Assembly: GCF_024707525.1 (NCBI RefSeq) | Contig: NZ_CP062232.1 | Span: 62,001 to 126,000 of the forward strand | Reading direction: 5' to 3' | DNA from: Rhizobium sp. TH2 | Lineage (GTDB): Bacteria > Pseudomonadota > Alphaproteobacteria > Rhizobiales > Rhizobiaceae | DNA: 64,000 nucleotides | In this document: piece by piece, positions 22,348 through 39,291 of the stretch | How positions within the stretch are numbered: position 1 is the first letter of the stretch | Layout: every line of letters starts with the position of its first letter | Program-made: the position numbers and the translations under genes | The notes under the pieces: model-generated | Seen by the model: the letters and a program-made list of their open reading frames with translations, nothing else | The model's database searches: none | What the model was told of the DNA's origin: nothing

Positions 22348-22380
22348 AACCTACTAGGGGTCGCGTTACGCGAGCGTTAC
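22348..22380 (-). promoter_or_regulatory. SARP-type direct-repeat promoter, S8 peptidase operon
   Basis: On the minus strand, GTAAC at 22380-22376 and again at 22369-22365 (11-bp period) is followed after 11 bases by TAGGTT as the -10-like box. It lies 115 bp upstream of the peptidase ATG. The same layout occurs at five other promoters in this block. Confidence 0.7.
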
Positions 22381-22447
22381 AGGGCGCCGCAGGAACCGCA
22401 TTGGTTCAAAGGCCAAAGATTGGTCACAAGCGCGCCGTATATAGGGT

Positions 22448-22615
22448 TCAATCGAGGGCTGCGCATCGCGCCTTCAACCTCTCAATCACCTCCTCGAATT
22501 CCGGTCGGGGATTATCCCAGCCAGCAGGACGGCTTGTCGAAGGCATCGTTTTTTCTGAGGCTTACCGCAGCGGGCCGCAGTATCTTTTGGACAGTGCAGG
22601 CAGCTCGTGGCATTG
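22448..22615 (-). pseudogene. Decayed 3' fragment of a dihaem cytochrome-like gene
   Basis: The minus strand encodes QCHELPALSKRYCGPLR, then TAA, then SEKTMPSTSRPAGWDNP and ending ARCAALD-stop. This matches the C-terminal 55 residues of the intact cytochrome-like gene at 37705-38961 (CSQCHE...AAEKTMPS...PAGWDNP...ARCAAVGG). One in-frame stop (22562-22564) interrupts it, and upstream coding has lost frame, though an RGYTPS-like trace is visible in another frame. It is a dead duplicate. Confidence 0.75.
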
Positions 22616-22836
22616 CGGCCGCGGCTTCAAGACGAGGGGGTGTAGCCGCGATGAAGTGTGACGGGCGACGTCTCATGCTCGTTTGAGCCCTGGGCCGCGA
22701 CGTGCCACGCTTGCTTACTTGGACCTGAATTTACCGCGACCCATGCCAAGACAATGCGATTTAGCTCCTGAGGTTTCTTGACCCGAAACAATTTGGCCTT
22801 CGATGCTCCGGGATCAGCCACGACTCATTACGAATG
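22616..22836. other. Non-coding or decayed sequence between the pseudogene fragment and the 427-aa gene
   Basis: A 64-codon GTG-started frame (22627-22821, minus) exists without a ribosome site. Its tail overlaps the region where the cytochrome-like pseudogene would continue. I see no other feature. Confidence 0.4.
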
Positions 22837-24120
22837 CTAATTCGTCCCGTAGGAACTTTTTTGTATTCCCATAATAGCGTCGGCCACGTCTCCGGCGGAG
22901 CCGTCCCTGTTCGCGAGTTCGTTCCGGAGTTGCGCTGCTCGTTTCCAGGCACTCTCGCCTGATCTGAGAGCCTCTCTCTCATCGGTGGTGAGCGAGAGTG
23001 AGCTCTGCTCCACCAGGGGACCATAGATTTGCGGAATCCCGCTCACTGCACTCAAGAGGTCGTGCCCTTCTTCCCCGCCCCGCGTGAGCCCCGCAGCTTC
23101 CGTCGGCTTTCCGAAGACCTTCGCGGCTTTGTCGAACTCCAGCAGGTATCCCGCGAGCGCGGCGTCACGGTCACGCGCGATTAGTTCGGAGCCGTAGATG
23201 GTACGCTGAAGTTTGCGGAAAGAATTTGTTGCCGCGCCATCCGCTCCATTGAAGGACTCGATCACTTCCTCCCACTGTGTACCAAAGAGATCAGGTGCGG
23301 TGCCGCTCGCATCGATGATGGTCTCCCGTCGTTGCACCGCCAGTAAGCAGTAATCGAAGTCGGTGACCAGAGGGGAGTCGGCTGCTTCCCCCGTGCGGAG
23401 CCGACCACCGGACACGAACAGCTTTCCCTTATGGGGCGAGTTCTCCGGTGCGTTGGAGATGAGCAGATACCCGCTTTGCTTTAGCAAGCCCCCATGCAGC
23501 GCCTCCACTTGCGGCGTCACCCCGTCTATGCCGAGAAGTTCGTTGAATCCCGAATAAACCTTCTCAGCGACGGCGAGTGCCGGAGCAAGTGCTCCTCCCA
23601 AGGCTCCGCTCACGCTCCCCATCACATTGAGCAGTGTGCGCGCAATGTCATCGCCGGGCACAGCGTAGAGCCCGACGAAAGCCTGAAGGTTGTTGAGCGA
23701 GACCGGCATCAGGCGCACGATCTCAATATCGCGCAGTTCTACCCAACCAGGACGCGCCTTTTCGTTTTCGGGCGCGTCGGGCTGGATCTCCTTCAGGCGC
23801 TGGCGAATGGTATTCGGACCAAGCGAAAACGGTACGGTCTGTGGTTTGCCGCGGGACCGAAACTCCGCCAGGCATAGGAATAATGGGAGCACCTTTACAG
23901 CGAACCGTCGCGAATCCGCGAGATGAAGACCGGAAAGCCGAAGGGTGAAGTAACAATCTCCGGGGGTGAAAGTCTTCCCATCCACCAATTCGGGGTCGCG
24001 GTCATGGCGGATGCGTTCAGCATCAATCCATTCTACCAACCTCGGGACAGTCTGAGCACCACTAGCTTTGCGAGCCGTATCTACCGCTTTCTTAAAGCTG
24101 AACAAGTCCCACAGCGACAT
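22837..24120 (-). CDS. Protein of unknown family, 427 aa
   Basis: The start has GAGGAG seven bases before ATG. I do not recognise the family. The first 180 residues look like an alpha/beta domain with alternating strands (CYFTLRLSGLHLADSR, WVELRDIEIVRLMPVS). A glycine/alanine-rich helix pair (VMGSVSGALGGALAPALAVAEKVY) could insert in a membrane. The C-terminal third is helical and charged. There is no signal peptide. It lies 18 bp after the CHAT-protein gene and in the same operon, so it is a candidate partner or substrate of that protease-like protein. Confidence 0.8.
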   Translation of the reverse strand: MSLWDLFSFKKAVDTARKASGAQTVPRLVEWIDAERIRHDRDPELVDGKTFTPGDCYFTLRLSGLHLADSRRFAVKVLPLFLCLAEFRSRGKPQTVPFSLGPNTIRQRLKEIQPDAPENEKARPGWVELRDIEIVRLMPVSLNNLQAFVGLYAVPGDDIARTLLNVMGSVSGALGGALAPALAVAEKVYSGFNELLGIDGVTPQVEALHGGLLKQSGYLLISNAPENSPHKGKLFVSGGRLRTGEAADSPLVTDFDYCLLAVQRRETIIDASGTAPDLFGTQWEEVIESFNGADGAATNSFRKLQRTIYGSELIARDRDAALAGYLLEFDKAAKVFGKPTEAAGLTRGGEEGHDLLSAVSGIPQIYGPLVEQSSLSLTTDEREALRSGESAWKRAAQLRNELANRDGSAGDVADAIMGIQKSSYGTN

Positions 24121-24138
24121 CGAAATTCTCCTCGTTTC

Positions 24139-25698
24139 TTAGACAGTTGTCCATTCGTCGTCCTGAACCACGAGCATCGGCGAGACGAAAGTAGGGCTGT
24201 GAGGGAACGCGGTTCGCACCGCGCTCCCGGCAGCGTGGAAGGCACGCGCCAGCGGAACTTGCTTGCCCAGCAATTCATGCAATTGGCCCGTAAAGAACGC
24301 TGCCTCCTTATCGTTGACTTCCCAACGGAAGCCGATAACGGCGGGAATCCCGGCCTGTGATAGGCGGAACACGGCTTCCGGGCCGCTGCTCTCGCACGAC
24401 GATAATATGACGAGTTGGACTTCAGCTTTGCGAGCCCAGGCTGCGAACTCGCTTACTCGCAAAGGGAGCACGTCGCCGGGCGCACGGCCGGGCAGGATCA
24501 AATACGTGGTGTCGTTGTCAGCCCGAATGCTGTGGCCAGCATAATGGATGATCTGCGGTTTAGGGGTCTGGGCCGAGGGTGCCGCATCCAGTCGATTCCG
24601 CAGCACTGCCAACGCGTTCCCGTCGGCCGTCAGTGCCAGTTCCTCCGGAGCAACCAACTCCGCAAGTTTGCGCGCTTGATCGACAGCATCGAATTCGACA
24701 TCCAAGGCCTGCAACGGTCCAAACATCCGCGCGCCGCCCGGACCAGGAAACTCGTATCGTCCATGCGCATCCGACTTGACGAAGATAATTTGGCCTGTGA
24801 GTTGCGCGGCATTCGTCAGTGCGGAAGCTGTCCGCGACTCGCTGGACAGACAGACGCGTCGAGCAATCGGCGCAAGAGAACGAACGAAGTTCTTCTTTAG
24901 CGGGTCATACAGCATCTCGAACGGCACATTGACGAACGGATTCGGCGAGTCCGGGCCAGGGCTCAGCAGGTTGAACCGGACGTGAACGCGGTCAAGCGTA
25001 CCGACCTCGTCAAGGCATTTGGAGATCGCAGCGGTTACGGCTTGTCCGGCGTAGTCTGTTTCGTAAGAGATGTCTTCCCCCGCTACTTTCAATACATCGA
25101 ACCAATTGTCGGTATAGCGCGCCGAACCGCCGCTACGCTGAATCGGCGTCCACTTAGCGAATTGTTCCTCCAACCGTCCCATCTTGCAGCGGCCAGCCCA
25201 ATCCCGACTTGAAGATGCGCCCACAAGCTTGCCATCAAGCGCAACTTCCGTGCGGATACTTGCTGCTCCAATCTGTAGTTCAACTTTCGCGGTGCGCGGT
25301 GCGGGCCCGCTGATTAGCGGTGAGTCAGCGAGAGCCGCCGCAATCGTCGAGGGTGCGTCATTTGCAAGCAGCACAGTATCGGATGAACGCGACGCTATGC
25401 TCTCGAGACGCTCCGAGGGAAACGGAGACCACACCAGAAGAGGGATGATTTTGTCTGCCTTGCGCAATGCGTCAAGAACGTCGGTTGCTTCCAAGAGAGC
25501 GTCGCTCTGATGCTGGCCCGGGGCCGCGAGGGCACTGATGAGAACGCTTGCAAATTTGGAGGAGCGCAATGCCGCAAGCGACTGGATGACTGAACGGGGG
25601 CCAGGTACACCTGTGACTTCAACGTCATATGCTTCGAGCGCGATCTGCAGGAACTCGATCCAATTGGCATCAGGAGAGACAACGAGGAGGCGCTTCAT
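24139..25698 (-). CDS. CHAT-domain (caspase-like) protein with receiver-like N-terminus
   Basis: 519 residues. The C-terminal CHAT domain (about 235-510) has the catalytic dyad region IIHYAGHS (His389) and VILSSCESSG (Cys435), followed by AGIPAVIGFRWEVND, the typical helix-strand after the Cys. Residues 1-125 have a response-regulator-like alternation (KRLLVVSPDANWIEFLQ...) but lack the phospho-acceptor Asp after the third strand, so it is receiver-like and not a working receiver. CHAT proteases cut partner proteins after sensor activation in known systems. Its gene overlaps the upstream sensor gene by four bases (ATGA), which suggests a sensor-protease pair. The substrate is unknown. Confidence 0.85.
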   Translation of the reverse strand: MKRLLVVSPDANWIEFLQIALEAYDVEVTGVPGPRSVIQSLAALRSSKFASVLISALAAPGQHQSDALLEATDVLDALRKADKIIPLLVWSPFPSERLESIASRSSDTVLLANDAPSTIAAALADSPLISGPAPRTAKVELQIGAASIRTEVALDGKLVGASSSRDWAGRCKMGRLEEQFAKWTPIQRSGGSARYTDNWFDVLKVAGEDISYETDYAGQAVTAAISKCLDEVGTLDRVHVRFNLLSPGPDSPNPFVNVPFEMLYDPLKKNFVRSLAPIARRVCLSSESRTASALTNAAQLTGQIIFVKSDAHGRYEFPGPGGARMFGPLQALDVEFDAVDQARKLAELVAPEELALTADGNALAVLRNRLDAAPSAQTPKPQIIHYAGHSIRADNDTTYLILPGRAPGDVLPLRVSEFAAWARKAEVQLVILSSCESSGPEAVFRLSQAGIPAVIGFRWEVNDKEAAFFTGQLHELLGKQVPLARAFHAAGSAVRTAFPHSPTFVSPMLVVQDDEWTTV

Positions 25699-28097
25699 AC
25701 TGGCACCTCTTCGAATCCGGGCGAGTGATCGACGCTATCCTTGTCGGACTTTTCCAGCCGTATGATCCGCATTCCCCCTAATATGACCAACGTCCTGCCG
25801 CCTTCTCGCCGGACCTCAAGCCTTGCGGCATGCGCCCTCATCACTTTCCGAACAGCCTCGGTAGCGTGCGTTGCTACTTCGAATGCCATGGATTCAACGC
25901 GAGCGATTTGATCCGGCTGGTTGGAGTCCAGCGGCTCTTCTGAAAGGGCACTCACGATAGATGCGCTATTCTGAGTTGTCAGAACTATCTTGACGAACGC
26001 CTTTGAACCGACTTCCTCCAATGAGACCCTTAGGGGGGACTCTGCTGTACCTACGGCAAGCAAATGGCCGAGAAGGGAGCGGAACGCAAAGGCGAGGCGC
26101 TCCGGATCGCCCCTAACGACCAACATCTTGTCAGGTTCAAAGCCAAGTTCAATGTGCTCTACCTCGTCATCTGGAAGAAGTGACCAGAAGCGCCGCAATT
26201 CTGCCGCGAGGTCGAGAAAGCCGTTACGGCGCTTAGGAGCTGAGACGACATCGAACACGGACGCAATGCGCTCGAATGGTAGATCCGCTCTGGACAGATT
26301 GCGCGAAGCGCGGTCTATCAAACCACGTGCCGACGAGGAATCCTCGGCCGACAGCTTTTTCTGCGCGCTAGCGAGCAGTGCTCCCGTCAGGAGCAAGCGT
26401 CCATGGGCCTGTGCGGCCACGGTCCGCACCGCAGTTTCCATGTACTTCAAGGCGCCGATCCATTCCGCTTGTTCGACATCGGCCAGAAGTAGCACTCGGC
26501 GGTGAAATGCCTCGTCCCTGTAGGAGGCTACCGCTAGCGCGGTGCGTATGATGCCATCGGCTCCTTTTAACCGAAGGTGCATGCCGACGCTTGAAACCTG
26601 ATCACCTGCGAGGAACTCGCGGGTCGTCCTATCGGCCGCATACCTCTTGAAGTCGGTGCGCTTGTCGCTACGAGAAAATATATGTTCCTTTGGCAAGCCG
26701 AGCAATTTTAGGGCCGCGACGTTGGCCCTTTCAATGCGTGTGGAACCGCCAAGCACGACGACGCCCTGCTCCACGACATTAAGCAGAGCCGCCGCGAGCC
26801 GCGCCTCAAACCACAGGGCGACCGCGCGCTCAATCTCGAGAATGACCTGTCTTAGCACTTCCTGGTCGGGGCGGGGAAAGGCATTGAATTGCGATGACTC
26901 AAGGTCAAGTATCCATTCGATTTCGGCGTCAGCGCGAAGGCCGATCTTGATCGGAAACGTAAGCGTCGACTTATGGTAATCGCTCACCCGGATGTAGTCG
27001 TGAGGCGTTGGCTCCTGCGTCACGTCCGCCACATAAAGTGCATGCCCCTTGTCCAAAGTTCGACCGAGCATCCCCGCCGTCAGGGGCTGTTCGTAATTGG
27101 TTGTGAAACTTAATTCTCCATGAGAGTCGTATTCCGCAACGACCTCAAACATGTTGCGAGCTCTATTGACGCGGAAGAGGCCTACATACTCCCACCCAAA
27201 GCCGCGACTGAGTTTTTTCACGAGTTGCCGGGCCAATTCCGTAGGCTGGGCGTCCGGCGTAAACAAACCCACGAGCTCCTGCGCAATCACCTGCGTACGC
27301 GCTTCGAACGCATCCTGAACTCGTCGCAGCACGCTTTCGAGGGACAGTGCGTCGAGCTTGATCTGATCGGCCTGTCCAAACGGACCGTAGGAATTGTCGC
27401 GTCGACGGGCGAGCGTGAGCACCGCCTTGACCCGGTTTCCGTCAAAGAGGGGTGCAACCAGGTAGCTGGTGGCTCTTCGTGCCTCGTATTCGCGTGTGAC
27501 AATGTTGTTCCGCATGACTTCTGCGTGCGGGTTCTCTTCGTAGAATTTTTCAGAGTCCGCGACCCAACGCACCTCCCCCTCCGCCCAGCGCGCGAGACCT
27601 TCGGGTACGTCGACCCACCGGGCTGGCCATTGAAACTCGACGCCGCTGTCCATTGCAAAACGCCCTCGGACAAGCGTGGTGCCAGTGGTCGCTTCGTCGC
27701 CATGATAGTATTCGGCGAAGCTGACCAGATCGAAAGGGATCTGCCGCTGTAGGATCGCGATGACCGAACGCAACATCGACTCCGGTTCCACGCCCGGTCC
27801 GCACGCGTCGAGCATTTCGACCGAAGCCTTGGGCGGGGTGGAAGAGTCAGATAGGCGCATTGCGAGAAGTGCGGCCCGATCGAAAAAACCGGCGACAGCC
27901 GCGTCCAAGTCATTGTGACGCACGTGTTCCAGCGCGCGCGTGAGATCGCGCCAGTCGATCCCGGGATTGCGGAGCTGGACCGCCAAGGATCGGGCCAGAT
28001 TAATCCAACGGTTCGGATCCGGGCTCAGAGCAGCTGTCGAAAACAGCGATGCGAGCTTGGTTATCCCGGATTCCTTATCATACAGCAGAGGTTCCAT
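25695..28097 (-). CDS. GAF/PAS sensor protein with degenerate histidine-kinase end
   Basis: About 800 residues from ATG at 28097 (GGAAA upstream); the frame is open to an ATG at 28187 that lies in a hairpin without a ribosome site. Two GAF-like domains (about 85-265 and 280-460) are followed by a PAS-like segment (AALLNVVEQGVVVLGGSTRIERAN). A helical dimerisation-like region contains AAQAHGRLLL, and an ATPase-like fold follows. The classical H-box (SHELRTP) and the N and G boxes are not recognisable, so kinase activity is doubtful. It is the first gene of an operon with the CHAT protein and is probably its sensor. The ligand is unknown. Confidence 0.75.
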   Translation of the reverse strand: MEPLLYDKESGITKLASLFSTAALSPDPNRWINLARSLAVQLRNPGIDWRDLTRALEHVRHNDLDAAVAGFFDRAALLAMRLSDSSTPPKASVEMLDACGPGVEPESMLRSVIAILQRQIPFDLVSFAEYYHGDEATTGTTLVRGRFAMDSGVEFQWPARWVDVPEGLARWAEGEVRWVADSEKFYEENPHAEVMRNNIVTREYEARRATSYLVAPLFDGNRVKAVLTLARRRDNSYGPFGQADQIKLDALSLESVLRRVQDAFEARTQVIAQELVGLFTPDAQPTELARQLVKKLSRGFGWEYVGLFRVNRARNMFEVVAEYDSHGELSFTTNYEQPLTAGMLGRTLDKGHALYVADVTQEPTPHDYIRVSDYHKSTLTFPIKIGLRADAEIEWILDLESSQFNAFPRPDQEVLRQVILEIERAVALWFEARLAAALLNVVEQGVVVLGGSTRIERANVAALKLLGLPKEHIFSRSDKRTDFKRYAADRTTREFLAGDQVSSVGMHLRLKGADGIIRTALAVASYRDEAFHRRVLLLADVEQAEWIGALKYMETAVRTVAAQAHGRLLLTGALLASAQKKLSAEDSSSARGLIDRASRNLSRADLPFERIASVFDVVSAPKRRNGFLDLAAELRRFWSLLPDDEVEHIELGFEPDKMLVVRGDPERLAFAFRSLLGHLLAVGTAESPLRVSLEEVGSKAFVKIVLTTQNSASIVSALSEEPLDSNQPDQIARVESMAFEVATHATEAVRKVMRAHAARLEVRREGGRTLVILGGMRIIRLEKSDKDSVDHSPGFEEVPV

Positions 28098-28153
28098 TCG
28101 CCATTTCCATGTCGATTGTCGCCACAGTCCGTGCGTCGCGGTCGCAAGCGGCC

Positions 28154-28198
28154 CCCGACTATTCATGGCCACCGAGACGGCGGCCATGAATAGTCGGG
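28154..28198. repeat. Perfect 17-bp inverted repeat in the sensor-gene leader
   Basis: CCCGACTATTCATGGCC (28154-28170) and its exact complement (28182-28198) flank an 11-base loop. It lies between the SARP-type promoter and the likely ATG at 28097, and it contains the alternative ATG at 28187. In RNA it would be a strong hairpin. No T-run follows, so it is not an ordinary terminator. Confidence 0.75.
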
Positions 28199-28264
28199 CT
28201 CATCTAGCGGAATGCGCTGACCTACTCTGCTCGGCTACCTTCTCGAACACCGTGTGCAGATGCA

Positions 28265-28297
28265 ATCCAATCACAGGTCACGTGACGGAGCCGTTAC
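28265..28297 (-). promoter_or_regulatory. SARP-type direct-repeat promoter, sensor/CHAT operon
   Basis: Minus strand: GTAAC (28297-28293), GTCAC 11 bp later (28286-28282), then 11 bases to TTGGAT. This copy has the weakest -10-like box but the spacing is identical to the others. Confidence 0.6.
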
Positions 28298-28398
28298 ATC
28301 GTCATCTCAAACAATGATTGGCGCGGAGCGCTAGGCTGCCGACCCAATACTTTGCACTACATTCGCAGGGAACCAACCACCGCTTTGCCGCTCGCGTT

Positions 28399-28431
28399 GT
28401 AACGAGAGAGTCACGCCGCATCTGCTTAGAT
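28399..28431 (+). promoter_or_regulatory. SARP-type direct-repeat promoter, cell-wall hydrolase gene
   Basis: Plus strand: GTAAC (28399-28403), GTCAC (28410-28414), then 11 bases to TTAGAT (28426-28431). It faces the hydrolase gene at 28546 and is back-to-back with the sensor-operon copy, about 100 bp away. Confidence 0.7.
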
Positions 28432-28545: not shown

Positions 28546-29790
28546 ATGCAAAGGCTCGAAGGCATTGCCGAGGTCGATTCCGACAGGGTCATCGCCGAGT
28601 TGATTTCGGCGGGTTTGTCGGTCGCAACGAAATTCCAGACGCCAGACCGGACCTGGACCTTGCTCGTCGACGGGCCCGGAGACGCCATGTCAGCGGCGAG
28701 AAGTCTCGTGCCCGAGGACGTCGATTACAAGCCTCCAGTCGCAGCATTGGATACGCCTTTGCCGATAAAAGCAGGGCCTGCGGGCAAATTCGTTTCCGCC
28801 CGCAAGATCGGCGACCGCCGCATTCTTTTCATCGACGAGAACGGCAGGGATTTTATCCGCGAAGGCGGGTCACGCGCATGGAGGAATTTCAACCCCGGCA
28901 ATATCAGACGCGGTACCTTCGCGAAAAGCGCGGGTTCGATCGGAGACGACGGCGCATTCGCCATTTTCCCCGACGAGGATACAGGGCTGGAAGCCGTGGT
29001 CACCTTGTTGAGATCCAAGTCCTATAACGACCTCAGCTTGGTAGACGCCGTTTTCAAATACGCGCCGCCGTCCGAAAATGATTCCAAGACCTATGCCAAG
29101 TTCATCGAAGATCAGACCGGAATTAAGCGGACCACGGTCCTGTCGACATTGGGCATCGCCGAGATAAGAAAGATCGCAAGGACAATAAGGCAGATAGAAG
29201 GCTGGTCGAACGGTTCCGAGCATCCCAACATGCCGCCGTCTTCGTTGTCTGCGGACACGCAAGCGGTCGCTTCCGCTGCGGCTTCGGCGTCCGACTGGAT
29301 GAGCACCGCGATAAGTGAAAGCCAGCTCCCTGCCAACGACCGCACGCAGTGGATCGACCCGGGCGAAAATCCGCGCATCCTGAATTATTTCAAGGTAGGC
29401 GCGCCCTGGTTCGATCCGGTTGGCGGTGACGAAGTCGACTGGTGCGCGGCGTTCGTGAACTATTGCCTCGTGACGGCCGGCTACATCGGAACGGAGCATC
29501 CGGGTGCGCGGTCGTTCTTCTGGAACAAGAAAAAGCAATTTGTTTCCCTGCCTGCGCCGACTTATGGCTGCGTCGCGGTGCGACGTTACGATCCCTTCAC
29601 CGATCCGGAGTGGAAAACGGGCACCGGACATGTCGGTTTCGTCGTAAGCAGTACGGCGACGACCGTCACCCTCCTCGGGGGCAATCAAAGCGACACCGTG
29701 CGGACGACGACATTCCCGCTGGAGGAAAAGACCTCGGCCGGGAAGCTACTGTCCAAGTTCGTCGCCTTCATGATGCCAGTCGGCAACTGA
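28546..29790 (+). CDS. Cell-wall hydrolase, lysozyme-like plus CHAP-type amidase
   Basis: 414 residues; GGAGGT eight bases before ATG fixes the start. Residues 100-215 resemble a structural glycosidase/lysozyme module (RAWRNFNPGNIRRG, GAFAIFPDEDTGLEAVV). The C-terminal 140 residues are a CHAP/TIGR02594-type amidase with Cys in DWCAAFVNYCL and His in GTGHVGFV. There is no signal peptide, so export would need lysis or a dedicated secretion route. It has its own SARP-type promoter and is divergent from the sensor/CHAT operon. It would cleave peptidoglycan glycan and peptide bonds. The first domain call is by eye. Confidence 0.82.
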   Translation: MQRLEGIAEVDSDRVIAELISAGLSVATKFQTPDRTWTLLVDGPGDAMSAARSLVPEDVDYKPPVAALDTPLPIKAGPAGKFVSARKIGDRRILFIDENGRDFIREGGSRAWRNFNPGNIRRGTFAKSAGSIGDDGAFAIFPDEDTGLEAVVTLLRSKSYNDLSLVDAVFKYAPPSENDSKTYAKFIEDQTGIKRTTVLSTLGIAEIRKIARTIRQIEGWSNGSEHPNMPPSSLSADTQAVASAAASASDWMSTAISESQLPANDRTQWIDPGENPRILNYFKVGAPWFDPVGGDEVDWCAAFVNYCLVTAGYIGTEHPGARSFFWNKKKQFVSLPAPTYGCVAVRRYDPFTDPEWKTGTGHVGFVVSSTATTVTLLGGNQSDTVRTTTFPLEEKTSAGKLLSKFVAFMMPVGN

Positions 29791-30699: not shown

Positions 30700-33600
30700 C
30701 TACTTTTTCGCATTGCCGCGCCGTCGTGCTGCACCAACCGCCGGAACCAGCGCCGCTGCCGGCACCCCGACGCATTTGAGCGCCTTGATGGCGTCAGGCA
30801 CGCCTCGGTTACCCCGGCTTTTATCCATAGTTGGTGGCAGCGTGCAGGAATTCAAGATGCAGTCCTGTATTTGGGTCACTGTGGCAAGCGGGTTGGCTTG
30901 GCACAGGATCGCGGCGAGCCCGGCAATGTGCGGCGTTGCCATCGAAGAGCCGGACATGGTTGCATACCCTCCGCCCGGGATACACGAGACGACATCGACA
31001 CCGGGGCCCACGACATCAGGCACGAGCGCGTCTCGGTCGCGAAGGAAGGTCTCGCTGCTCGAGAAATCCGCGACCAGGTCATTGACGCTGCTGGCGCCGA
31101 TCGAGAGAACTTCGGCATAGTTGCCCGGTGAGCGGCTTGACCCCGCATATTCGTTGCCGACAGCGATGACCGGCAGGACGTTACCATCGATCAACGCATT
31201 GATGAGGACCTGAAAGGCAGGTGTGAATCCGCGCAGTCCCAGTGACATCGATAGGACACGTGCACCTTGCCCGAGGACCCATTCCATGCCGCCGATGATG
31301 CGCGTGATGACGTCGCCATTTTCGATGACGAGTGCGCTCGCCAGCTTGCAACCGGGCGCCACGCCAAATCGTGCACCGTTGGCAAGTCCACGGCCGGCAA
31401 TCGTGCCGGCAGTATGGCTGCCATGTTGACCGCTATCGCGGGGCGCCGCGTTGTCCACACGCCGCCCCGCGAGATCGAATTCGGCGAAGCTGTGAAGCGC
31501 ATCGGCAAGCGCAGGGTGCGTTGCGTCGATGCCCGTGTCGAGATGGCCGACGATAACGCCCGTGCCGTCATAGCCCGCAGCCCACGCGTTGTCGACGTTG
31601 AGCCGGCGAATGCCCCACGTAACGTCTACCGGCTCAACTACTGCCATGGCTGCTGCCGGTCGGATCAGGCTGAGCACCGGTGCCTCGTGAATGGCGCGTG
31701 TTGCCGCATGGTGCCTGAGGTTGTTGATCGTCCTCCAGGTCACAATTCCGACGGCGACGCCGAGACGAGGGAACACGGTGACGGGTTGGGGCCGTATCTG
31801 GTGTTCCTCCGCGCTGTCGATCGCCGCGGCAGCGGCAAGATGGTCCGCCTGCGCCATGTCGGGAAATTCGAAGCACGCTTCGAAAGAAGGATCACCGATG
31901 GAAGCGGCAAAGCCCTCAGCGCCCAAGGCAAGTGCCGCGCCCGCAGTGTCGCGTCTCAGCGACACAAGAACTTTGGCAAAGCCCGTCCGCTCGATCGCGT
32001 TATCGACGTCGCTTGCCACGCGCGGCTGGGCCGGCGGGCGGGCCATCGCGCTTGTGCTTTCTGCGGGTGTAGCGGCCGCCGCAGCAGCGCCCGTGAAGCT
32101 GACATGGAGATGATTATCGTGGCCTCCGAGCGGAGTGACGCCCGATATGTTCGGATCGTTGAAGAAGATCGTCCTGATGGGCATCACCGCATTTTTGCGG
32201 ACGATATCAACAAGGAGCCGTGTGCGGGCGGATGAGTAGGAGGCGTCCTGCCACGTCGAACCTTCTGCCCTGGCGTCTTTGCGCGGAACACGAAAGTCGA
32301 CGTCGATGCCATGCTTATGATCCTTATGTGGTGGCACTGGCCCGCCGCCGTCACGGCTGATATTGCCAACGCCCAGCCGTATGCCAGTCGCTTGGAAGTA
32401 TTCGTCGGCTATGGCTCGCACGGCCTGAATCGTGAGCGCAGTTCCGAACCTTTTCTGGACGGGGCCGTAAGCGTAAAAGCTTGTCTCGGAGGCGGGCAGT
32501 TGCACGTCAATTGGGGCGACAGCCGCAGCCATTGCGTCGTCGGAACTGTCAGGTGCCTCACACGCCGTCTCTGCCGTGTCTTCTTCGAATTGTTTGATTT
32601 GCGACGGCTCCGAGAGGGCGAGCGATGCCGAATTGTCGGCGAGTTTGCCATTGCGGGCGAGGACGTAGACATGTGTCTTTGTCCGCCAGCTCAGACTGGC
32701 CCAGTCCCGTGTGTCCGGCCCGAAGCCTCCATGAGACTCGGTCGTTTTGCCGTTGACGATCAGCAGGACGTGTCCAATTCCCGAGGCTGCGTCCTGTGGG
32801 CGCAGAAAGGCGATGCGCACGACGCCGTCGTTCAACGCACCGTCCGCCGGTGTGCCTTTCAAAAATCTGTTTGCCTTGACCCAATCATGCTGCACGACAG
32901 AACCGTCGGGAAACTTGAGTCGCGGCGTAGTGACCCGGCGGATGGCTTCGCGTATGAAGCCGCTGCAATCGACCTGAGTGAAATCGCGTCCGGGTACCGC
33001 CCCAAAGAACGGCACCTTGTCACCCAGTCCGTAGCGAACGCGCGGGGTCGACGACCTGCAGGCGTCGCGAAAGGCGAACGCGGCACTGCTGTCAAACGCA
33101 ATGGTGCTCGCCACAACGGCTTGAAGCTCAGCCCCTTCCGGGTCGCCACCAGGAACGCCAAGATTGGCGAGCATGCGGGCGGTATCGAGATCAGCGCTGG
33201 CGTCTGGGTCGAGCGGGGCGTAGCCAGGATCCTCATCGGCTCCCCGGGCGATATCAAGCGCAGCAACGGTGCTCTGCGCAAGACCTAACCCGTCACCGTG
33301 CGCGGCTTCCTCGCAATGGGGCAGAAGGCGCATCACATCCGTTGCATATTGTTCGGCGCGCGGACCGGAGCCATTATAGGCGCGCACCGCAGCGCGTATG
33401 CTGCTGCTGCCCGTCGCAACAAACTTGCGCTGTAGTTCATCGACAGCACGTTTGACGCATTCCCCAAAATCGTACCACTTCCGCTCGCGGAAGAACGCTT
33501 CGTCAGTTTGAACGTGTTGGAGATCGTACTGGAAGATGCCGTAACCTTTGTAGATCATCGAGGAGGCGTTGAGGCCGCGCGCGGCGCGCGCTTTGTTGGT

Positions 33601-35844
33601 CTCAGCGATGAGGAGGTTGGTAAATACCTGGCCGTAGGTGGCGCGAAATTCAGACGTGTTGACAGGGAAGGCTGATCGCGGGGCACCGGAAACGTCGCCA
33701 CTGGCATCATAGACGCAGAGCCTCAGAATCTCTGCCGAGCTTCGACCAGCGGTCAGCGGCAGCCAGTAGATTCCCGCCTCGCGGCAGGCGATGGCGCATA
33801 ACAACGGCACGCTGAAACGCGTACCCCGCACCGCGTCGTCGAGTTCGTCGCGGAAATGCCGTACCATCCAGCGTGTTACGGCCTGCGCAGTATCCTTCTC
33901 ACTATTGGCTACGGCAAGAAAAGTGCCGTCGAAACTTTCGCCTCCGGTTCCCGTATTCTCCAGCCCCAGTTCCCGTCCGCCGACCCATGCGTGTGGCGGT
34001 ATGGGTAAGTCAGTCGCATCGCTTGTCCCGAACCTGTTGCCAGCTTCAGCCACGCCGAGATAGGCCCACGAACTCTGGCCAGCCGCCGCCGCCGAAAGCT
34101 CAATGGCATCCCCGATCTCGCTCGCGTCGGCCGTCTCGAAGCCGGCGCTCTCCACGCCGGTTCCGAGATAGGATTCGATGCCGCGCGCAAGAGCCTTCGC
34201 GATCCGAATGCGATATGCCTCGGTTTTCAGCTTTGCTTCTTCGTCAACGCGGTCGAGGAAGCTGACCTCAAGCAGGACAGCGGCGGTGCGGGATGAATGG
34301 CTGACGCGATCGATAACCCCGAACGCAGCCTGCTTGACGCCGCCAGGGTGGGATCTGTTGCGATCGGAAAGACCCAGTTCCGAGACCATGGACCCTTGCA
34401 CTGTGACGCAAAGACGTCGGGAAGCGTCGATATGGTTGTTGTGGACGAATGTCTCGGTGCCCTGTGCGTTATGGTTATCCGAGGCGTTGAAATGGATTGA
34501 GACGAAGACGGGGGCGGCGCGCATTTTTGCCACCGCCGCCCTGTTCGCCAGCGACAGGTTGTTGTCACCGTCGCGCGTCAGCAGAACCTCGAATCCTCGG
34601 CCTTCGAGGACCGCCTTGGTCTTCTTCGCGACATCGAGCGTCAGAGTCTTCTCGAGCGTGCCCGATGGGCCGATCGCGTTGTTCCAGCTTGAACCACCGA
34701 GCTTAACGGGAGGAGCTGTTCCGCCATGGCCGGGATCCAGCACGACAACTGCTCGGCTTGCCGCCTCGAGGCTGGGCAGATTGCCGCCGGCCATCGTTTC
34801 GAGCGCCGCGATGGCGATTTCGGCACCGTCCGGGCTGCCGCCGGCGGCGCTCTCAGTGGCAATTTCGGCTGCCACTATTGCAATCGCCTTGCGAAATTCC
34901 TCGGCCGCGCGGCCAAAGCCTTCATTCTTTGGATGCAGTTCGTCGAACCAGCTTGCGCGACCCTTGTCGACTTTGCCTCGCAGGTCGACGAACCGAAAAT
35001 TGCTGAACTCGGACTCAAGTGCTCGCAGTCCTGAGGTGAACCTATCCAACACTAACCCGACGATCTTGCGGCCAATGGCAAGCGAAATGCCGCGATCGGC
35101 CAGCGGTTTGCCGATCCATCGGGCGCCGTCCTGGGGGTAGGGCACGTCATAAGCATGGCCGAGCACCCGGACCTGAGGAAAGCGCAGGCGCACGTCGGTC
35201 AGGATGCTGCGATAGGCCGCCAAAACCTTCCGCAGTTCGGCATCGAGCATTGGCAGGTTCAATAGATCCTCGGCCTGTTTGCCTGCGGCAAAGGGGAGCA
35301 GCAAGGCGGCAAAGCGTCCGTCGCCGAGAATGTCGTTGCCGCCGCCGGAGAGAATCAGAATTCTCGCCGAGCTCTGGGTCAGGGCGGGAAGATATTCCTT
35401 GCGGGCAGCCATGTCCTCGACTAGGTCACCGGCGGCGCCCAGCGAAAAAATCGCCTTGTCGGAGTCGTTGCCGAGCTGGTCAACGATATCATCGAGCAGA
35501 AGCGGATACTGGGTCCAGCTATCGCCCTCTTCGACTATATGCAGCCCTTTGAAACCAATCGCGGTCTTTGTCTTGTAGGTAACCCAACGGCTCGCACGGG
35601 CGATCTTGTTGGCCCAGTTGAGGGCTGCATTGCTTTCGAGCGCGACCTCGGCCAATTGGCGCTTGATTTCAGGCCTTAGCTGGATAGCGGCATCGAAGGG
35701 TTTGTCGGCCTCCTGGGAAGGCTCGTAAAGTTCGTGAAGCAGCTTTTCGAGCGCCTCCCGATCGCCCGCGGCTACCGCTGCATCGATCCGTTCCTGGATC
35801 GTGTCGGCAAGTGTCTGGCCTTCATGCACATTCATAGCCGGCAT
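30700..35844 (-). CDS. Giant fusion: SGNH, amidase, lysozyme-like, NlpC/P60, M74-like and S8 domains
   Basis: About 1,714 residues; ATG at 35844 is seven bases after GGAGGG, better than the ATG at 35850. Domains in order: SGNH hydrolase (100-330; GDSW, GGGND, DELHP); N-acetylmuramoyl-L-alanine amidase_3 (366-565; DPGHGG, SIHFNAS, LLEVSFLD); lysozyme-like transglycosylase (660-845; CREAG, GYGIFQYD, YNGSGP); NlpC/P60 (925-1068; DCSGF, IGHVLL); M74-like endopeptidase (1115-1255; HKDHKHGIDVDF, GGHDNHLHV); I9-like strand region; S8 protease (1405-1680; Asp1438, His1476, Ser1636). All key residues are present. There is no signal peptide. It would digest several peptidoglycan bonds and process proteins. 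It has a SARP-type promoter and is followed by an I9-like gene. Confidence 0.88.
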   Translation of the reverse strand: MPAMNVHEGQTLADTIQERIDAAVAAGDREALEKLLHELYEPSQEADKPFDAAIQLRPEIKRQLAEVALESNAALNWANKIARASRWVTYKTKTAIGFKGLHIVEEGDSWTQYPLLLDDIVDQLGNDSDKAIFSLGAAGDLVEDMAARKEYLPALTQSSARILILSGGGNDILGDGRFAALLLPFAAGKQAEDLLNLPMLDAELRKVLAAYRSILTDVRLRFPQVRVLGHAYDVPYPQDGARWIGKPLADRGISLAIGRKIVGLVLDRFTSGLRALESEFSNFRFVDLRGKVDKGRASWFDELHPKNEGFGRAAEEFRKAIAIVAAEIATESAAGGSPDGAEIAIAALETMAGGNLPSLEAASRAVVVLDPGHGGTAPPVKLGGSSWNNAIGPSGTLEKTLTLDVAKKTKAVLEGRGFEVLLTRDGDNNLSLANRAAVAKMRAAPVFVSIHFNASDNHNAQGTETFVHNNHIDASRRLCVTVQGSMVSELGLSDRNRSHPGGVKQAAFGVIDRVSHSSRTAAVLLEVSFLDRVDEEAKLKTEAYRIRIAKALARGIESYLGTGVESAGFETADASEIGDAIELSAAAAGQSSWAYLGVAEAGNRFGTSDATDLPIPPHAWVGGRELGLENTGTGGESFDGTFLAVANSEKDTAQAVTRWMVRHFRDELDDAVRGTRFSVPLLCAIACREAGIYWLPLTAGRSSAEILRLCVYDASGDVSGAPRSAFPVNTSEFRATYGQVFTNLLIAETNKARAARGLNASSMIYKGYGIFQYDLQHVQTDEAFFRERKWYDFGECVKRAVDELQRKFVATGSSSIRAAVRAYNGSGPRAEQYATDVMRLLPHCEEAAHGDGLGLAQSTVAALDIARGADEDPGYAPLDPDASADLDTARMLANLGVPGGDPEGAELQAVVASTIAFDSSAAFAFRDACRSSTPRVRYGLGDKVPFFGAVPGRDFTQVDCSGFIREAIRRVTTPRLKFPDGSVVQHDWVKANRFLKGTPADGALNDGVVRIAFLRPQDAASGIGHVLLIVNGKTTESHGGFGPDTRDWASLSWRTKTHVYVLARNGKLADNSASLALSEPSQIKQFEEDTAETACEAPDSSDDAMAAAVAPIDVQLPASETSFYAYGPVQKRFGTALTIQAVRAIADEYFQATGIRLGVGNISRDGGGPVPPHKDHKHGIDVDFRVPRKDARAEGSTWQDASYSSARTRLLVDIVRKNAVMPIRTIFFNDPNISGVTPLGGHDNHLHVSFTGAAAAAATPAESTSAMARPPAQPRVASDVDNAIERTGFAKVLVSLRRDTAGAALALGAEGFAASIGDPSFEACFEFPDMAQADHLAAAAAIDSAEEHQIRPQPVTVFPRLGVAVGIVTWRTINNLRHHAATRAIHEAPVLSLIRPAAAMAVVEPVDVTWGIRRLNVDNAWAAGYDGTGVIVGHLDTGIDATHPALADALHSFAEFDLAGRRVDNAAPRDSGQHGSHTAGTIAGRGLANGARFGVAPGCKLASALVIENGDVITRIIGGMEWVLGQGARVLSMSLGLRGFTPAFQVLINALIDGNVLPVIAVGNEYAGSSRSPGNYAEVLSIGASSVNDLVADFSSSETFLRDRDALVPDVVGPGVDVVSCIPGGGYATMSGSSMATPHIAGLAAILCQANPLATVTQIQDCILNSCTLPPTMDKSRGNRGVPDAIKALKCVGVPAAALVPAVGAARRRGNAKK

Positions 35845-35923
35845 TTTCATTCCCTCCGACGAGCATGATTGGAAAAATGTTTTGGCGCAGATGCAATTCT
35901 GAGTGGGTCCGGTCCCGCGAGTT

Positions 35924-35956
35924 GACCTAGCGGCCCGGGCGTTACTTGCCCGTTAC
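35924..35956 (-). promoter_or_regulatory. SARP-type direct-repeat promoter, giant fusion gene
   Basis: Minus strand: GTAAC (35956-35952), GTAAC 11 bp later (35945-35941), then 11 bases to TAGGTC (35929-35924). The -10-like box is almost identical to that of the S8 operon (TAGGTT). It is 80 bp upstream of the ATG. Confidence 0.7.
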
Positions 35957-36125
35957 AAGGCGTCTCGAATTGGTGCTTGACCTGCAAGAGGTAATATTAT
36001 GGGACCGGTAGCGGTCCGGATGCGATCGATGACAGGGACTGCCGTGCCATCGTGCCGCGGCCGGGCAGAGCGAGGGTGGTGGAAACTCACCGCATCACGC
36101 CGGTGGAGACCCCATATGCAGCCTT

Positions 36126-36158
36126 GTAACGTTGCCGTCACGGCATACTCGCTATTTC
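36126..36158 (+). promoter_or_regulatory. SARP-type direct-repeat promoter, ATPase gene
   Basis: Plus strand: GTAAC (36126-36130), GTCAC (36137-36141), then 11 bases to TATTTC (36153-36158). It is 70 bp upstream of the GTG start of the ATPase gene. Confidence 0.65.
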
Positions 36159-36227
36159 TTCCGCAAAGCTTGGAGCCTTGCCTAACTTCTCGTCGCCCGG
36201 ATCGAATCCGCTACGAGGGCATGTGAG

Positions 36228-37328
36228 GTGGAGAGGATACGGAAATTGTCCGACATATCATTGTTCCGGCCGTCAGAGCTCAAGAGGCAGCGCGATCGTG
36301 CGGAATGGTTGACGCCTTTGGAAATCCTTGTAGGCGCCTCGCCGCAGGACGGAACCGATTGCTTCGTGGGCCGGCGCAACGAACTGAAGACGCTTGTGAA
36401 CTTCACGGACGTGCTTCGACCGCAGTCTGTCGGAGAAATGGAAACACGGCTCTTGCGGAGCGCGAGCAGTTCGTGCTTGCCCAGCCCGGGGGCACGCGCG
36501 ATGATGCTGGTCGCCCCGAGCGGACTGGGCAAATCGACACTCGTCGCGAAATTCGCAATGACCTACGTCCTAAAGTCGGCGGTTCCGTTTCCTTTCATCT
36601 ATTTCAATTTCGGCACGGCATCGAGTCGGCCTCGGCGATCCCTCGATCTTCTCGTCGAGGCCGCCCGGCAACTGTCACTTCAATTTCCCGACTACTGCCG
36701 TTCGTTCACCAACCTGAAGGGTAGAGTGAGTGATTGGATTGCAGAAGGAGATGACGTTGGGCACCGCTCGAAGAAATCGGGCGACGACAGCGCCTTACAA
36801 GGATCGTCCGAGACATTCTTCGTCTCGTTTCGAGACCAACTGCAGGCGACGTCGCGATGGTCGGATAGGACCGTGATGGTGTTCGACGCGCTCGAGACCA
36901 TTCAAAGCAGCCCCGACGCAATGTCGGACCTGAAGGAGTTCCTACGGTTGTTGTGCGCGAACGGCTTCCCACAGCTTAGGCTGTTGTTTGCCGGTCGAGC
37001 CGAGGTTGCGGAATTCCGCGATGAGCCTTGGCTGGACATGGTGAAGAAGCCGCTCACTTTGGGTCCGCTCGGCATCGCCGAAGCGTGCGAGATGGTGAAC
37101 AGGCTCGGTGCCCTTCTTTTGAGGGATAATTGGCGGCCGAGTTGGGCCAACAAGATCGCGGGGTGTTCCAATGATCCACCCGGCCGTCGCGAACCGTTGG
37201 CGTTGCGTGTCGGCGTCGAGCGTATTTGCTCCGCCTCGAAGGAACAACGAGACAAGGTCGTCGGCGACTACGCGGAGAGCTGGGCGCTTGCCGCCGGATC
37301 AGTATCAAACGACCGTTGCAAGCGTTGA
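36228..37328 (+). CDS. P-loop ATPase, AAA_16/STAND-like, possibly truncated
   Basis: 366 residues from a GTG. FVGRRNELKTL near 45 is the usual start of AAA_16/STAND ATPase modules. Walker A is APSGLGKST near 100 and Walker B VMVFDALE near 205. EPLALRVGVERI near the end corresponds to the sensor/GxP region. Nothing follows in the way of a winged-helix, TPR or WD repeat domain. The frame ends 33 bp before the convergent gene, so either it is a minimal switch or it has lost its sensor end. It has its own SARP-type promoter, so it belongs to the same regulon as the hydrolase genes. Confidence 0.75.
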   Translation: MERIRKLSDISLFRPSELKRQRDRAEWLTPLEILVGASPQDGTDCFVGRRNELKTLVNFTDVLRPQSVGEMETRLLRSASSSCLPSPGARAMMLVAPSGLGKSTLVAKFAMTYVLKSAVPFPFIYFNFGTASSRPRRSLDLLVEAARQLSLQFPDYCRSFTNLKGRVSDWIAEGDDVGHRSKKSGDDSALQGSSETFFVSFRDQLQATSRWSDRTVMVFDALETIQSSPDAMSDLKEFLRLLCANGFPQLRLLFAGRAEVAEFRDEPWLDMVKKPLTLGPLGIAEACEMVNRLGALLLRDNWRPSWANKIAGCSNDPPGRREPLALRVGVERICSASKEQRDKVVGDYAESWALAAGSVSNDRCKR

Positions 37329-37360
37329 AGTGATTTCTACATCCATCGGCGCGCAGTCCT

Positions 37361-37708
37361 TTAGTTCGCAGCACTTCTACCCGTAGCGGTGTTTCCATTG
37401 GCGGCCTTCAGCTCGATGCCAGGCCGCTCGGCCAGATACAGACAATACTCCTCGAAGGCATCTGCGAAAGCCAGCGCGACCTCCGATTCCCGCCAGCCAG
37501 TCTCGAGGAAAGCCAGGACGACGTGTCGGGCTGTATCCCTGGTGATCTTTGTCAGCTCACGGTTCCGCCGGCGGTCGGCTGCACTGGACACTGGCGACTT
37601 CACGAGAATTTCCATCATTGACCTCCTTGCGGACTGTTTAAGCTGAATATTCGCTGCTGCCTGCTGCTCCGCCATCGCTTCCGGCCTGTCTGCGTTTCGC
37701 TCGTTCAT
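37361..37708 (-). CDS. Small helical protein of unknown function
   Basis: 115 residues. ATG at 37708 overlaps the stop of the cytochrome-like gene (ATGA), which chooses this start over a longer upstream frame. The sequence is charged and helical (RRNRELTKITRDTARHVVLAFLETGW) with no Cys-rich or repeat pattern apart from one Cys. The N- and C-terminal ends are low-complexity (AAANIQ, GNTATG). It is third in an operon with a 76-aa protein and a dihaem cytochrome-like protein, just downstream of the YcaO-TfuA genes. The family is not recognised. Confidence 0.6.
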   Translation of the reverse strand: MNERNADRPEAMAEQQAAANIQLKQSARRSMMEILVKSPVSSAADRRRNRELTKITRDTARHVVLAFLETGWRESEVALAFADAFEEYCLYLAERPGIELKAANGNTATGRSAAN

Positions 37709-38961
37709 CCTCCGACCGCCGCACAGCGCGCCTTGATCTTCTCGATTGCGTCCTTGTACTCGGGCAGGGGATTGTCCCACCCAGCAGGCCGGACCGGGGA
37801 GGGCATCGTTTTCTCGGCAGCCTGCCGCAACAAGCCGCAAAACCGCTTCGTCGGGGCAGCCAGTTCGTGGCACTGAGAGCAGGCTCCTTCCCCCTTGTGT
37901 TCCATTGGCGAAGGGTTTTCCCAATCTTCCTGCCCGATCGGCGTATAGCGCACGTCGGGAAGACGCTGTTTGACTGCGTCCAGCGGGGTTCCGGGATGAA
38001 CCAGGAAGACGTTCTCGCCGCGATGGCAATCAGTGCATCGTTCTCTCATGTTCGAACCGTTGCCCATAGTGCGGACATCGAGTTGAATTTCCAAACCCCG
38101 AATCCGGTTATCCATGCGCTCGCCCGGGACGACGTTGTCCCAGAAGCAAGCCTTCCCGGTTGCCTTGCTCTGGCAGATCATGCCCACTGCCTCGTACCAC
38201 CGGTTACGATTCTTGCGCACGAGCGCGTAGCAAAGCCCCTGACCGTTTGGTTCCTCGTACGTGAAGACCTCGGTTGTTCTGGCATCCGGGAAATCCGCGA
38301 AGAAGAAGGGTAGCTCGCCGCGGGAAACCCACCTTTCGTCCGGCCAGTTGGGCGGAATCGGCACGTCGTTTGCCCGGCAGGTCTCGATGTAGCTGTCACC
38401 TGGCTTTGCCGAAGTGTCGTCCTCGCTTTCGACCGTTATTGCCTGGGGCAGCGCTCCATCGGGCGCTGTCGACATTGCGGCGAGGCTTTCTCCGATGACA
38501 CTCAGCCTTCCACGCACGAACTCCCTTTGATCGCGGCTCAAGCGGTGAATTCCCTTCTCGATTTCGGCTTGCCGGGCAAGCAATTCTCTGATTTCGGCGG
38601 AAACATCGGGAAATTCCATCGGCAGTTCCGATGGCGTGCTGTCCCCCCCAGTCGGTCCCCAGACTGTCGAAGGGGCACTCTCGATAAGCTTGAGAACGGA
38701 CTGCTGGATGCTCCTGATCGCGGCCGTGTCGAGTTCGATCGCCGCACGCTTCCGATTCACCGCCACACCGTGATAGACGTAGCTGATGTCCTCGATGACG
38801 GGATGGTTTCCCGACCCCCACGGGCTGAAGACCATGAAGGCGATCAGTGCGACTGCCACCGGAACGATCGTGAAACCTCTTTGAGATCTGAAATGCCACG
38901 CGCCGATGCGGCTGGTCGGTGGCGGTCTGCCGCCACCGCGGCTGAAGAGCCTGATGATCAT
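37705..38961 (-). CDS. Membrane-anchored dihaem c-type cytochrome-like protein
   Basis: About 418 residues from ATG at 38961 (a TTG at 38970 is the alternative). One N-terminal membrane helix (FTIVPVAVALIAFMVFSPW) follows a basic cytoplasmic tail. A helical region (RSIQQSVLKLIES) leads to a soluble domain. Two CxxCH haem c attachment motifs, CTDCH and CSQCH, lie near 325 and 365. It would be a periplasmic electron carrier or peroxidase-like protein. I cannot name the family. It is coupled to a downstream 115-aa gene and preceded by a 76-aa gene and a SARP-type promoter. A decayed copy of its 3' end lies at 22448-22615. Confidence 0.78.
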   Translation of the reverse strand: MIIRLFSRGGGRPPPTSRIGAWHFRSQRGFTIVPVAVALIAFMVFSPWGSGNHPVIEDISYVYHGVAVNRKRAAIELDTAAIRSIQQSVLKLIESAPSTVWGPTGGDSTPSELPMEFPDVSAEIRELLARQAEIEKGIHRLSRDQREFVRGRLSVIGESLAAMSTAPDGALPQAITVESEDDTSAKPGDSYIETCRANDVPIPPNWPDERWVSRGELPFFFADFPDARTTEVFTYEEPNGQGLCYALVRKNRNRWYEAVGMICQSKATGKACFWDNVVPGERMDNRIRGLEIQLDVRTMGNGSNMRERCTDCHRGENVFLVHPGTPLDAVKQRLPDVRYTPIGQEDWENPSPMEHKGEGACSQCHELAAPTKRFCGLLRQAAEKTMPSPVRPAGWDNPLPEYKDAIEKIKARCAAVGG

Positions 38962-38976
38962 CCAAGGCAATCCACG

Positions 38977-39207
38977 TCAGTGATAGCCCTGAACATGCCC
39001 TAGCTCTACCGTTCCGGATACCGATGAAATATCCACGCCTGCGATCTTGAGTTCGTCCAGTACCGAAGCGAGCGCCATGTCCAGGAAGTATGCCGGAAAC
39101 GATACATTCAGATCCTGCGCCGTCTGGCGTGCGAAACTGACGATGCGCGCGAGTGCTGCAAGTTCTTTCTGAAAATTCTCCGATTGTTCGACAATACTGC
39201 GTTCCAT
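38977..39207 (-). CDS. 76-aa protein next to YcaO-TfuA, candidate RiPP precursor or partner
   Basis: 76 residues: a helical first 55 (MERSIVEQSENFQKELAALA...FLDMALASVLDELKIAG) and a short polar tail (VDISSVSGTVELGHVQGYH). A helical leader with a small Gly/Ser/Thr-rich tail is compatible with a RiPP precursor, but there is no diagnostic motif or Cys. It is the first gene after a SARP-type promoter that overlaps the end of tfuA, and it is followed closely by the cytochrome-like gene. ATG has GGGGG ten bases upstream, which can pair with the CCCCC of a leader hairpin. Confidence 0.6.
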   Translation of the reverse strand: MERSIVEQSENFQKELAALARIVSFARQTAQDLNVSFPAYFLDMALASVLDELKIAGVDISSVSGTVELGHVQGYH

Positions 39208-39225
39208 CTTAGCCCCCGAATTGCC

Positions 39226-39248
39226 AACCCCCTGAAAATTTGGGGGTT
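39226..39248 (-). promoter_or_regulatory. Leader hairpin before the 76-aa gene
   Basis: AACCCCC and GGGGGTT arms flank a 9-base loop just after the predicted transcription start. A further GGGGG lies ten bases before ATG at 39207. The CCCCC strand could pair with either GGGGG, which suggests translational control. The arms are short, so this is tentative. Confidence 0.4.
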
Positions 39249-39258
39249 TACTTGAAAA

Positions 39259-39291
39259 AGATAAACAGTCGCGCCGTTACATCGCCGTTAC
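39259..39291 (-). promoter_or_regulatory. SARP-type direct-repeat promoter, cytochrome/76-aa operon
   Basis: Minus strand: GTAAC (39291-39287), GTAAC (39280-39276), then 11 bases to TTATCT (39264-39259). The first repeat overlaps the tfuA stop codon. The 76-aa ATG is 52 bp downstream. Confidence 0.72.

Follow-up and report, generated by a model that had tools for sequence, protein, structure and literature searches.

Six spaced direct repeats in a 64,000-nucleotide stretch of Rhizobium sp. TH2 DNA (the window, which lies on a 238-kb contig) are probably the operators of a SARP-type regulator encoded at 41542..43485 (minus strand), which belongs to a gene cassette and would control one regulon through them. 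The cassette runs in the order XRE protein, BTAD/TPR regulator, precursor-like peptide (p83), YcaO and TfuA, followed by a small protein, p76. By computation, the repeat is confined within the genome to two such cassettes and is conserved before p76 in relatives, its half-site is linked to the recognition helix of the regulator, and the regulator model matches the fold of the Streptomyces SARP AfsR.

The first-pass annotation had reported six GTAAC-N6-GTMAC sites, each pointing at its gene and followed after exactly 11 bases by one of six listed hexamers; their coordinates and strands were confirmed, and all six spacings and hexamers were identical on re-reading. A G follows each half in all six sites, giving the common word GTAACG-N5-GTMACG with a hexamer N10 behind it. 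GTAACG fills both halves of site 1, before an S8 peptidase (22348..22380, minus strand, hexamer TAGGTT), of site 4, before a multi-hydrolase fusion (35924..35956, minus strand, TAGGTC), and of site 6, at the TfuA end before p76 (39259..39291, minus strand, TTATCT), which is the conserved site of the family. The second half is GTCACG in site 2, before a GAF/CHAT operon (28265..28297, minus strand, TTGGAT), site 3, before a CHAP hydrolase (28399..28431, plus strand, TTAGAT), and site 5, before a STAND-like ATPase (36126..36158, plus strand, TATTTC). Six GTAAC-N6-GTMAC sites in the window compare with 0.02 expected, and none of 100 dinucleotide-preserving shuffles contained at least six. The hexamers lie 51–114 bases from the annotated starts, which are those of the ORF caller. 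Half-sites, spacing and direction are constant across the six sites and the flanks otherwise differ; a dispersed mobile repeat as their source was rejected because the flanking sequences do not match.

The genes behind the sites are varied. Site 1 precedes a 717-aa S8 peptidase (20080..22233, minus strand; PF00082, E = 6.8e-29), and site 2 a two-GAF sensor protein (830 aa, 25695..28187, minus strand) with a CHAT peptidase (519 aa, 24139..25698, minus strand; PF12770, E = 1.3e-18). A 427-aa protein at 22837..24120 (minus strand) has no family assignment, with zero matches in Pfam, NCBIfam and PADLOC. Sites 3, 4 and 5 face a 414-aa CHAP-domain protein (28546..29790, plus strand), a 1716-aa fusion of GDSL lipase, Amidase_3, M74 and S8 parts (30700..35850, minus strand) and a 366-aa STAND/AAA-like ATPase (36228..37328, plus strand; NPHP3_N, E = 7e-7, and AAA_22), respectively. 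The small helical protein p76 (38977..39207, minus strand) is followed by a 421-aa protein with an N-terminal hydrophobic stretch and two CxxCH motifs (37705..38970, minus strand). The cassette itself comprises, all on the minus strand, TfuA (39288..40016; PF07812, E = 2.9e-43) and the adjacent YcaO (40017..41261; PF02624, E = 2.3e-62), p83 (41268..41519; conserved leader, variable tail with core units), the 647-aa regulator (winged helix, BTA, alpha/beta part and TPR) and the XRE (HTH_3) protein kept beside it (43507..44001).

Other features are visible in the same window. A PLD-domain gene with a weak NAL1_N match lies behind the S8 peptidase (18020-19648, minus strand) and possibly shares its operon. 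A DUF4158 protein (12507-14156, minus strand) points to mobile DNA in the neighbourhood of the cluster; DUF4158 is part of Tn3-type transposases. Two direct repeats of 39 nucleotides (45260-45298 and 45324-45362), which agree to 90% and lie 64 bases apart, sit where a HipA_C-domain gene (45294-47207) begins, a possible operator of a toxin–antitoxin-like unit.

Over the whole 6.44-Mb genome, GTAAC-N6-GTMAC has 9 matches against 16 for a letter-reversed control, so the pattern is not rare genome-wide; it is the clustering that stands out, with 6 of the 9 matches falling within 17 kb. We therefore adopted the GTMACG form for genome scans. GTMACG-N5-GTMACG has 7 matches against 2 for the control, and all 7 lie in or beside two cassettes: the six window sites and a site on the 5.88-Mb contig (C1:4325610), where it closely follows TfuA in a second YcaO/TfuA/BTAD cassette. 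The genome scan for the motif proposed in the first-pass annotation thus divides: the GTMACG form is confined to the two cassettes, whereas the original pattern stays below its control. The same confinement bears on a PhoB-kind winged-helix regulator as the owner of the sites. PhoB-kind regulators also use 11-bp direct repeats before a −10 element, and the half-site is, we presume, somewhat like the Pho half-site. Against this, BTAD cassettes contain or adjoin all seven genome matches, and the half-site varies with the BTAD helix (see below), so that we regard a PhoB-kind owner as highly improbable; membership of the PhoB regulon, judged only from the confinement to BTAD cassettes, appears unlikely.

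In seven other genomes GTMACG-N5-GTMACG gave 20 matches against 14 for the control and is therefore mostly background there, and it was not used alone as evidence in those genomes. Additional targets sought in Ciceribacter and six Pleomorphomonas-group genomes were rejected: of 15 matches, 7 lie before p76, and the 8 elsewhere were taken as background, having by eye no −10-like hexamer at N10.

A search at E ≤ 1e-50 detected the regulator in 92 of the 394 Rhizobiaceae genomes sampled and in 27 of 109 genera, and the cassette recurs in the Rhizobiaceae and in Pleomorphomonas with the same gene order. Across 90 regulator loci (80 plus 10 earlier ones; 1.89 Mb) there are 58 exact sites in 52 loci and 0 in the reversed control; a second set of 80 loci, which overlaps the first, holds 41 sites in 40 loci, again with 0 in the control. 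The usual position is some tens of bases behind TfuA, before p76. A longer pattern, GTCACG-N5-GTCACGCGC, has 54 matches in 47 of the 394 genomes (2 in the reversed control), and these fall in 38 of the 92 genomes with the regulator compared with 9 of the 302 without it (Fisher p = 2.5e-19, relatedness ignored). For 2 of the 38 genomes (G376 and G078) the match lies either on a different contig or some 9 kb off.

After removal of duplicates, 158 regulator loci remained, the window included, and 98 of them have p76 behind on the same strand. At each of these, the 260 bases upstream of p76 were searched for the best direct repeat, with scoring for similar halves and a bonus for an ACG ending. Scores of at least 8 were obtained at 97 of the 98 loci and in 100 of 1,960 shuffles, and the period is 11 bp in 91 loci and 12 bp in 7, the latter forming one branch that includes R. 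rhizogenes. The repeat is thus conserved upstream of orthologues of p76, which sequence comparison indicates is its conserved target; among 171 loci, the peptidase, CHAT, CHAP and ATPase units were seen only here.

Further repeats occur beside related genes. In one Ensifer genome a second site, GTCACGCAACTGTCACGCGC (L265:9633, minus strand), lies beside another BTAD-family regulator (585 aa, L265:10730-12487), and the same 20 bases are present in four more genomes (G238, G333, G369 and G397). Ensifer-type loci (L084:8282, L192:9215, L085 and L087) carry GTAACG-N6-GTAAC, with a 12-bp period, about 315 bases before the XRE match, a possible autoregulatory site. Before p76 in many of the loci L079-L087 and L098-L106, a third GTCACG lies 20 bases behind the second half-site and abuts the −10 element (GTCACGC-TATGAT or alike).

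Two proteins of the cassette have DNA-binding domains, and the XRE protein could be the one that reads the repeats, with the BTAD protein as its partner or sensor. XRE and repeat go together: across the 158 loci both are present in 81, neither in 44, XRE only in 27 and the repeat only in 6, so that XRE is found in 81 of the 87 loci with the repeat and is absent from 44 of the 71 without it. Of the regulator loci lacking XRE, 44 have no such repeat nearby; near-repeats beside such regulators are just scattered matches with up to two mismatches (17 of the loci inspected). Because of this co-occurrence, presence alone cannot settle which protein is the reader. The sequence of the half-site is more informative. 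We typed the regulators by residue 66, which stands behind LR in the recognition helix. Among loci with both XRE and p76, the GTMACG repeat is present in 76 of 84 with a K or Q regulator and in 0 of 12 with an S or T regulator. Loci of the S type instead carry GCAACG-N5-GCAACG at the position that the GTMACG repeat holds elsewhere. Over the 98 p76 loci, the first half begins with GTC in all 54 K types, with GTC (20), GTA (7), GTG (3) or TTG (1) in the 31 Q types, with GCA in all 12 S types and with GTA in the single T type (G006), which has T at residue 66 yet keeps a GT half-site.

On a tree of the C-terminal parts of the regulators from all 98 p76 loci, neither the S state nor the GC state changes more than twice, and their changes coincide, giving one supported independent pair. 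The link between helix and half-site is best taken as a telling pattern rather than statistical proof, with apparently one or two evolutionary events behind the S/GCAACG switch. The recognition helix of XRE is largely the same with or without the GTMACG repeat (F in 79 of 81 and 22 of 27 loci, respectively), so that changes in the half-site accompany those in the BTAD helix against a mostly constant XRE helix. In addition, the fetched stretch shows no XRE match at six repeat-bearing loci, including three species of one genus and G005. A winged helix also suits direct repeats better than an XRE dimer does. On balance, we consider it quite unlikely that XRE is the reader and favour the BTAD regulator.

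The domain structure of the regulator is consistent with a SARP. Pfam BTAD matches it above the cut-off (E = 1e-7) and Trans_reg_C below the cut-off, although BTAD reaches E = 0.01 in just 2 of 10 family members. The structural model (mean pLDDT 76, built from 8 sequences) predicts a winged helix with its recognition helix at residues 57-78 and an all-alpha domain up to residue 237, beyond which it has a poorly predicted linker, a putative alpha/beta part and a predicted TPR array. TPR chains top the Foldseek ranking because the tail of the regulator is long, and the AfsR SARP domain appears at ranks 8, 28 and 29 (8k60 and 8hvr), with E values of 2e-7 to 1e-6, TM scores of 0.65–0.67 on the AfsR chain, r.m.s.d. 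of 4.5–5.7 and 21–22% identity. The 50 matches listed by VIA-align are all of TPR type and say nothing on the N-terminal half. We also considered a HilA-type protein, which combines an OmpR-type DNA-binding domain with TPR; the NCBIfam HilA/EilA model matches residues 334-550 (E = 4.6e-8), and this identity was rejected at 31.9 of 589 bits, far under the cut-off of the model.

A weak profile alignment (E = 0.13) places LR-K/Q-x-x-S-R of the regulator on VR-T-x-x-S-R of AfsR, and thereby residue 66 on T88 and R70 on R92. In AfsR, according to the accessible text of two reports, T88 contacts the base at −36 and R92 contacts T-38 (PMC10936776, PMC10972967). Against R87, T88, S91 and R92 of AfsR, this weak alignment sets R65 and R70 in the same register, K, Q, S or T at residue 66 and mostly S at residue 69. 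By our own reading, the S-type half-site TGCAAC would share the C at −36 with AfsR, and the K and Q types would have T there. Compared with those accessible parts, the regulator resembles AfsR and other SARPs in its winged helix followed by a BTA domain, in a head-to-tail pair of repeats with an 11-bp unit, in the register of its recognition-helix residues and, in the window branch, in a box that would replace a poor −35 element before a weak −10 element (PMC10936776, PMC10972967). The differences are that the hosts are Rhizobiaceae and Pleomorphomonas rather than actinomycetes, that the regulator has an alpha/beta and TPR tail and lacks the NOD of AfsR, that the half-site is another one and the regulator is tied to a YcaO–TfuA cassette, and that the box of most relatives sits one turn further upstream. 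The SARP reading of the first-pass annotation is thus supported by the repeat beside the regulator family in many genomes, by the half-site that follows the helix and by the fold match to AfsR.

The −10-like box at fixed spacing, also proposed at the outset, is a positional signal beyond that of shuffles. Over offsets 3–41, the mean −10 score of the six sites peaks 10 bases after the 17-mer, a value reached by 3 of 5,000 shuffles. Nine sites from other genomes (six of the Pleomorphomonas group, one Ciceribacter, and G005 and G006, which are grouped with the window by genus) share this peak offset, again with 3 of 5,000 shuffles, at a low mean of 0.47 bits. TG stands one base ahead of the hexamer in 11 of the 15 N10 sites, and several N10 hexamers score poorly against the −10 matrix. 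In contrast, 45 family sites elsewhere have their peak at 22, where 25 of them exceed 3 bits, or at 21, with 11. The window, Ciceribacter, the six Pleomorphomonas-group genomes and G006 form one supported branch of the tree, from which G005 is missing because it lacks p76. As stated in the accessible text on SARPs, the 3′ repeat lies about 8 bp before the −10 element and the box overlies −35 (PMC10936776, PMC10972967). The SARP box position given in the first-pass annotation therefore roughly fits the window branch, with N10 between the half-site and the −10-like box, and does not hold for most other family sites, at 21–22. By analogy with the AfsR phase, as far as it is given in those sources, the window box would be centred near −31.5 (AfsR, −29.5) and the other family boxes near −43 (class II activators, −41.5).

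A narrower alternative is that the repeat before p76 is a true operator and that the remaining five window sites, in part or all together, have ceased to work or do not work yet, so that there is no six-unit regulon. In relatives the repeat is mainly before p76, and the 170 other regulator loci contained no homologues of the S8, GAF, CHAT, CHAP, STAND, 427-aa and 421-aa proteins (duplicates included; stretches mostly about 9 kb per side), with partial relatives of the 1716-aa fusion in 3. These peptidase, CHAT, CHAP, fusion and ATPase units look like local additions in this genome. However, half-sites, spacing and direction are kept in all six sites despite their different flanks, and we judge the narrower alternative unlikely. 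Our preferred reading remains one regulon, in which proteases and cell-wall hydrolases would share their control with a CHAT peptidase and a STAND-like ATPase; by inference from the encoded proteins only, this suggests lysis, killing or defence. A known anti-phage system was rejected, since PADLOC run on 10 proteins returned just generic subtilase and weak IetS matches in two S8 proteins.

The 1716-aa fusion (30700-35850) looks like a member of a modular effector family. Its first 600 residues (GDSL and Amidase_3) have relatives of 65–68% in three Rhizobiaceae genomes (L260, L261 and L262), which carry other C-terminal parts; relatives of these residues elsewhere have no repeat nearby. The GDSL part also occurs in L120 and L134 (L134:831-3197). 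In one genus, the surroundings of a BTAD–YcaO–TfuA cassette hold a GDSL–matrixin protein, another, weak GDSL match and a Tle1-like phospholipase (L120:11938-13602, minus strand; PF09994, E = 1.2e-69).

The cassette also holds a candidate for a signal. The 76 distinct relatives of p83 share a common leader and have a variable tail with core units such as SGKLE and GGYMD: two to six units in 12 relatives, one in 49 and none by motif in 15. The window p83 has three motif matches, one of which (VTVYD) is outside the core proper, and its model (mean pLDDT 57) predicts a disordered tail. Of 118 loci measured, 88 have the p83 start 16–44 bases behind the regulator match, with greater distances being partly an artefact of split matches, and p83 is also present in 23 loci without XRE, YcaO, TfuA or p76 matches nearby. 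The pairing of YcaO and TfuA resembles that for McrA-glycine thioamidation, an identity that was rejected at 184.7 of 235.2 bits for TfuA and 194.9 of 365 for YcaO (NCBIfam equivalog cut-offs). Adjacent YcaO and TfuA genes are likewise the mark of the TfuA–YcaO thioamidated RiPP clusters, of which over 500 were counted in Rhizobium; the accessible part of that report makes no mention of a p83 precursor, a BTAD regulator or its box (PMC8120280).

From these features we infer binding, activation and joint expression as follows. Two regulator protomers would each occupy one GTMACG half-site in head-to-tail orientation, at a spacing of 11 bp. As AfsR does in Streptomyces, the bound regulator would stand in for a good −35 element and bring RNA polymerase to a weak −10 element, whose hexamer is mostly preceded by TG at a distance of one base. 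The regulator would be inherited within a cassette with the XRE protein, p83 precursor, YcaO and TfuA, with p76 as the conserved output, and here the operator would also serve the S8 peptidase, GAF/CHAT operon, CHAP hydrolase, multi-hydrolase fusion and STAND-like ATPase. A peptide signal from p83 is possible. In a more speculative extension, p83 would receive a thioamide and be processed into short peptides containing a G-x-x-D/E core, the TPR domain of the regulator would sense these peptides, and the activated regulator would turn on p76 and, here, protein and cell-wall hydrolases together with the CHAT peptidase, which would place lysis, killing or defence in Gram-negative rhizobia under the command of a modified peptide; the box of the regulator family would also have two positions, one SARP-like and one class II-like, separated by a shift of one helical turn. 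We offer this extension tentatively, and as a whole it is rather doubtful.

SARPs have been studied mainly in actinomycetes, and among open-licence papers we found none joining BTAD, alphaproteobacteria and SARP. On the sequence comparisons made here, a switch of the kind used by antibiotic-producing Streptomyces seems to work in rhizobia too. The family described is a single SARP-type family with a visible box, one residue linked to the half-site and two natural box positions. It gives a rule for finding the targets of such regulators, and its p83 peptides are precursor candidates for uncharacterised rhizobial TfuA–YcaO clusters. The two box positions offer a natural test of the distance between a SARP box and the −10 element.
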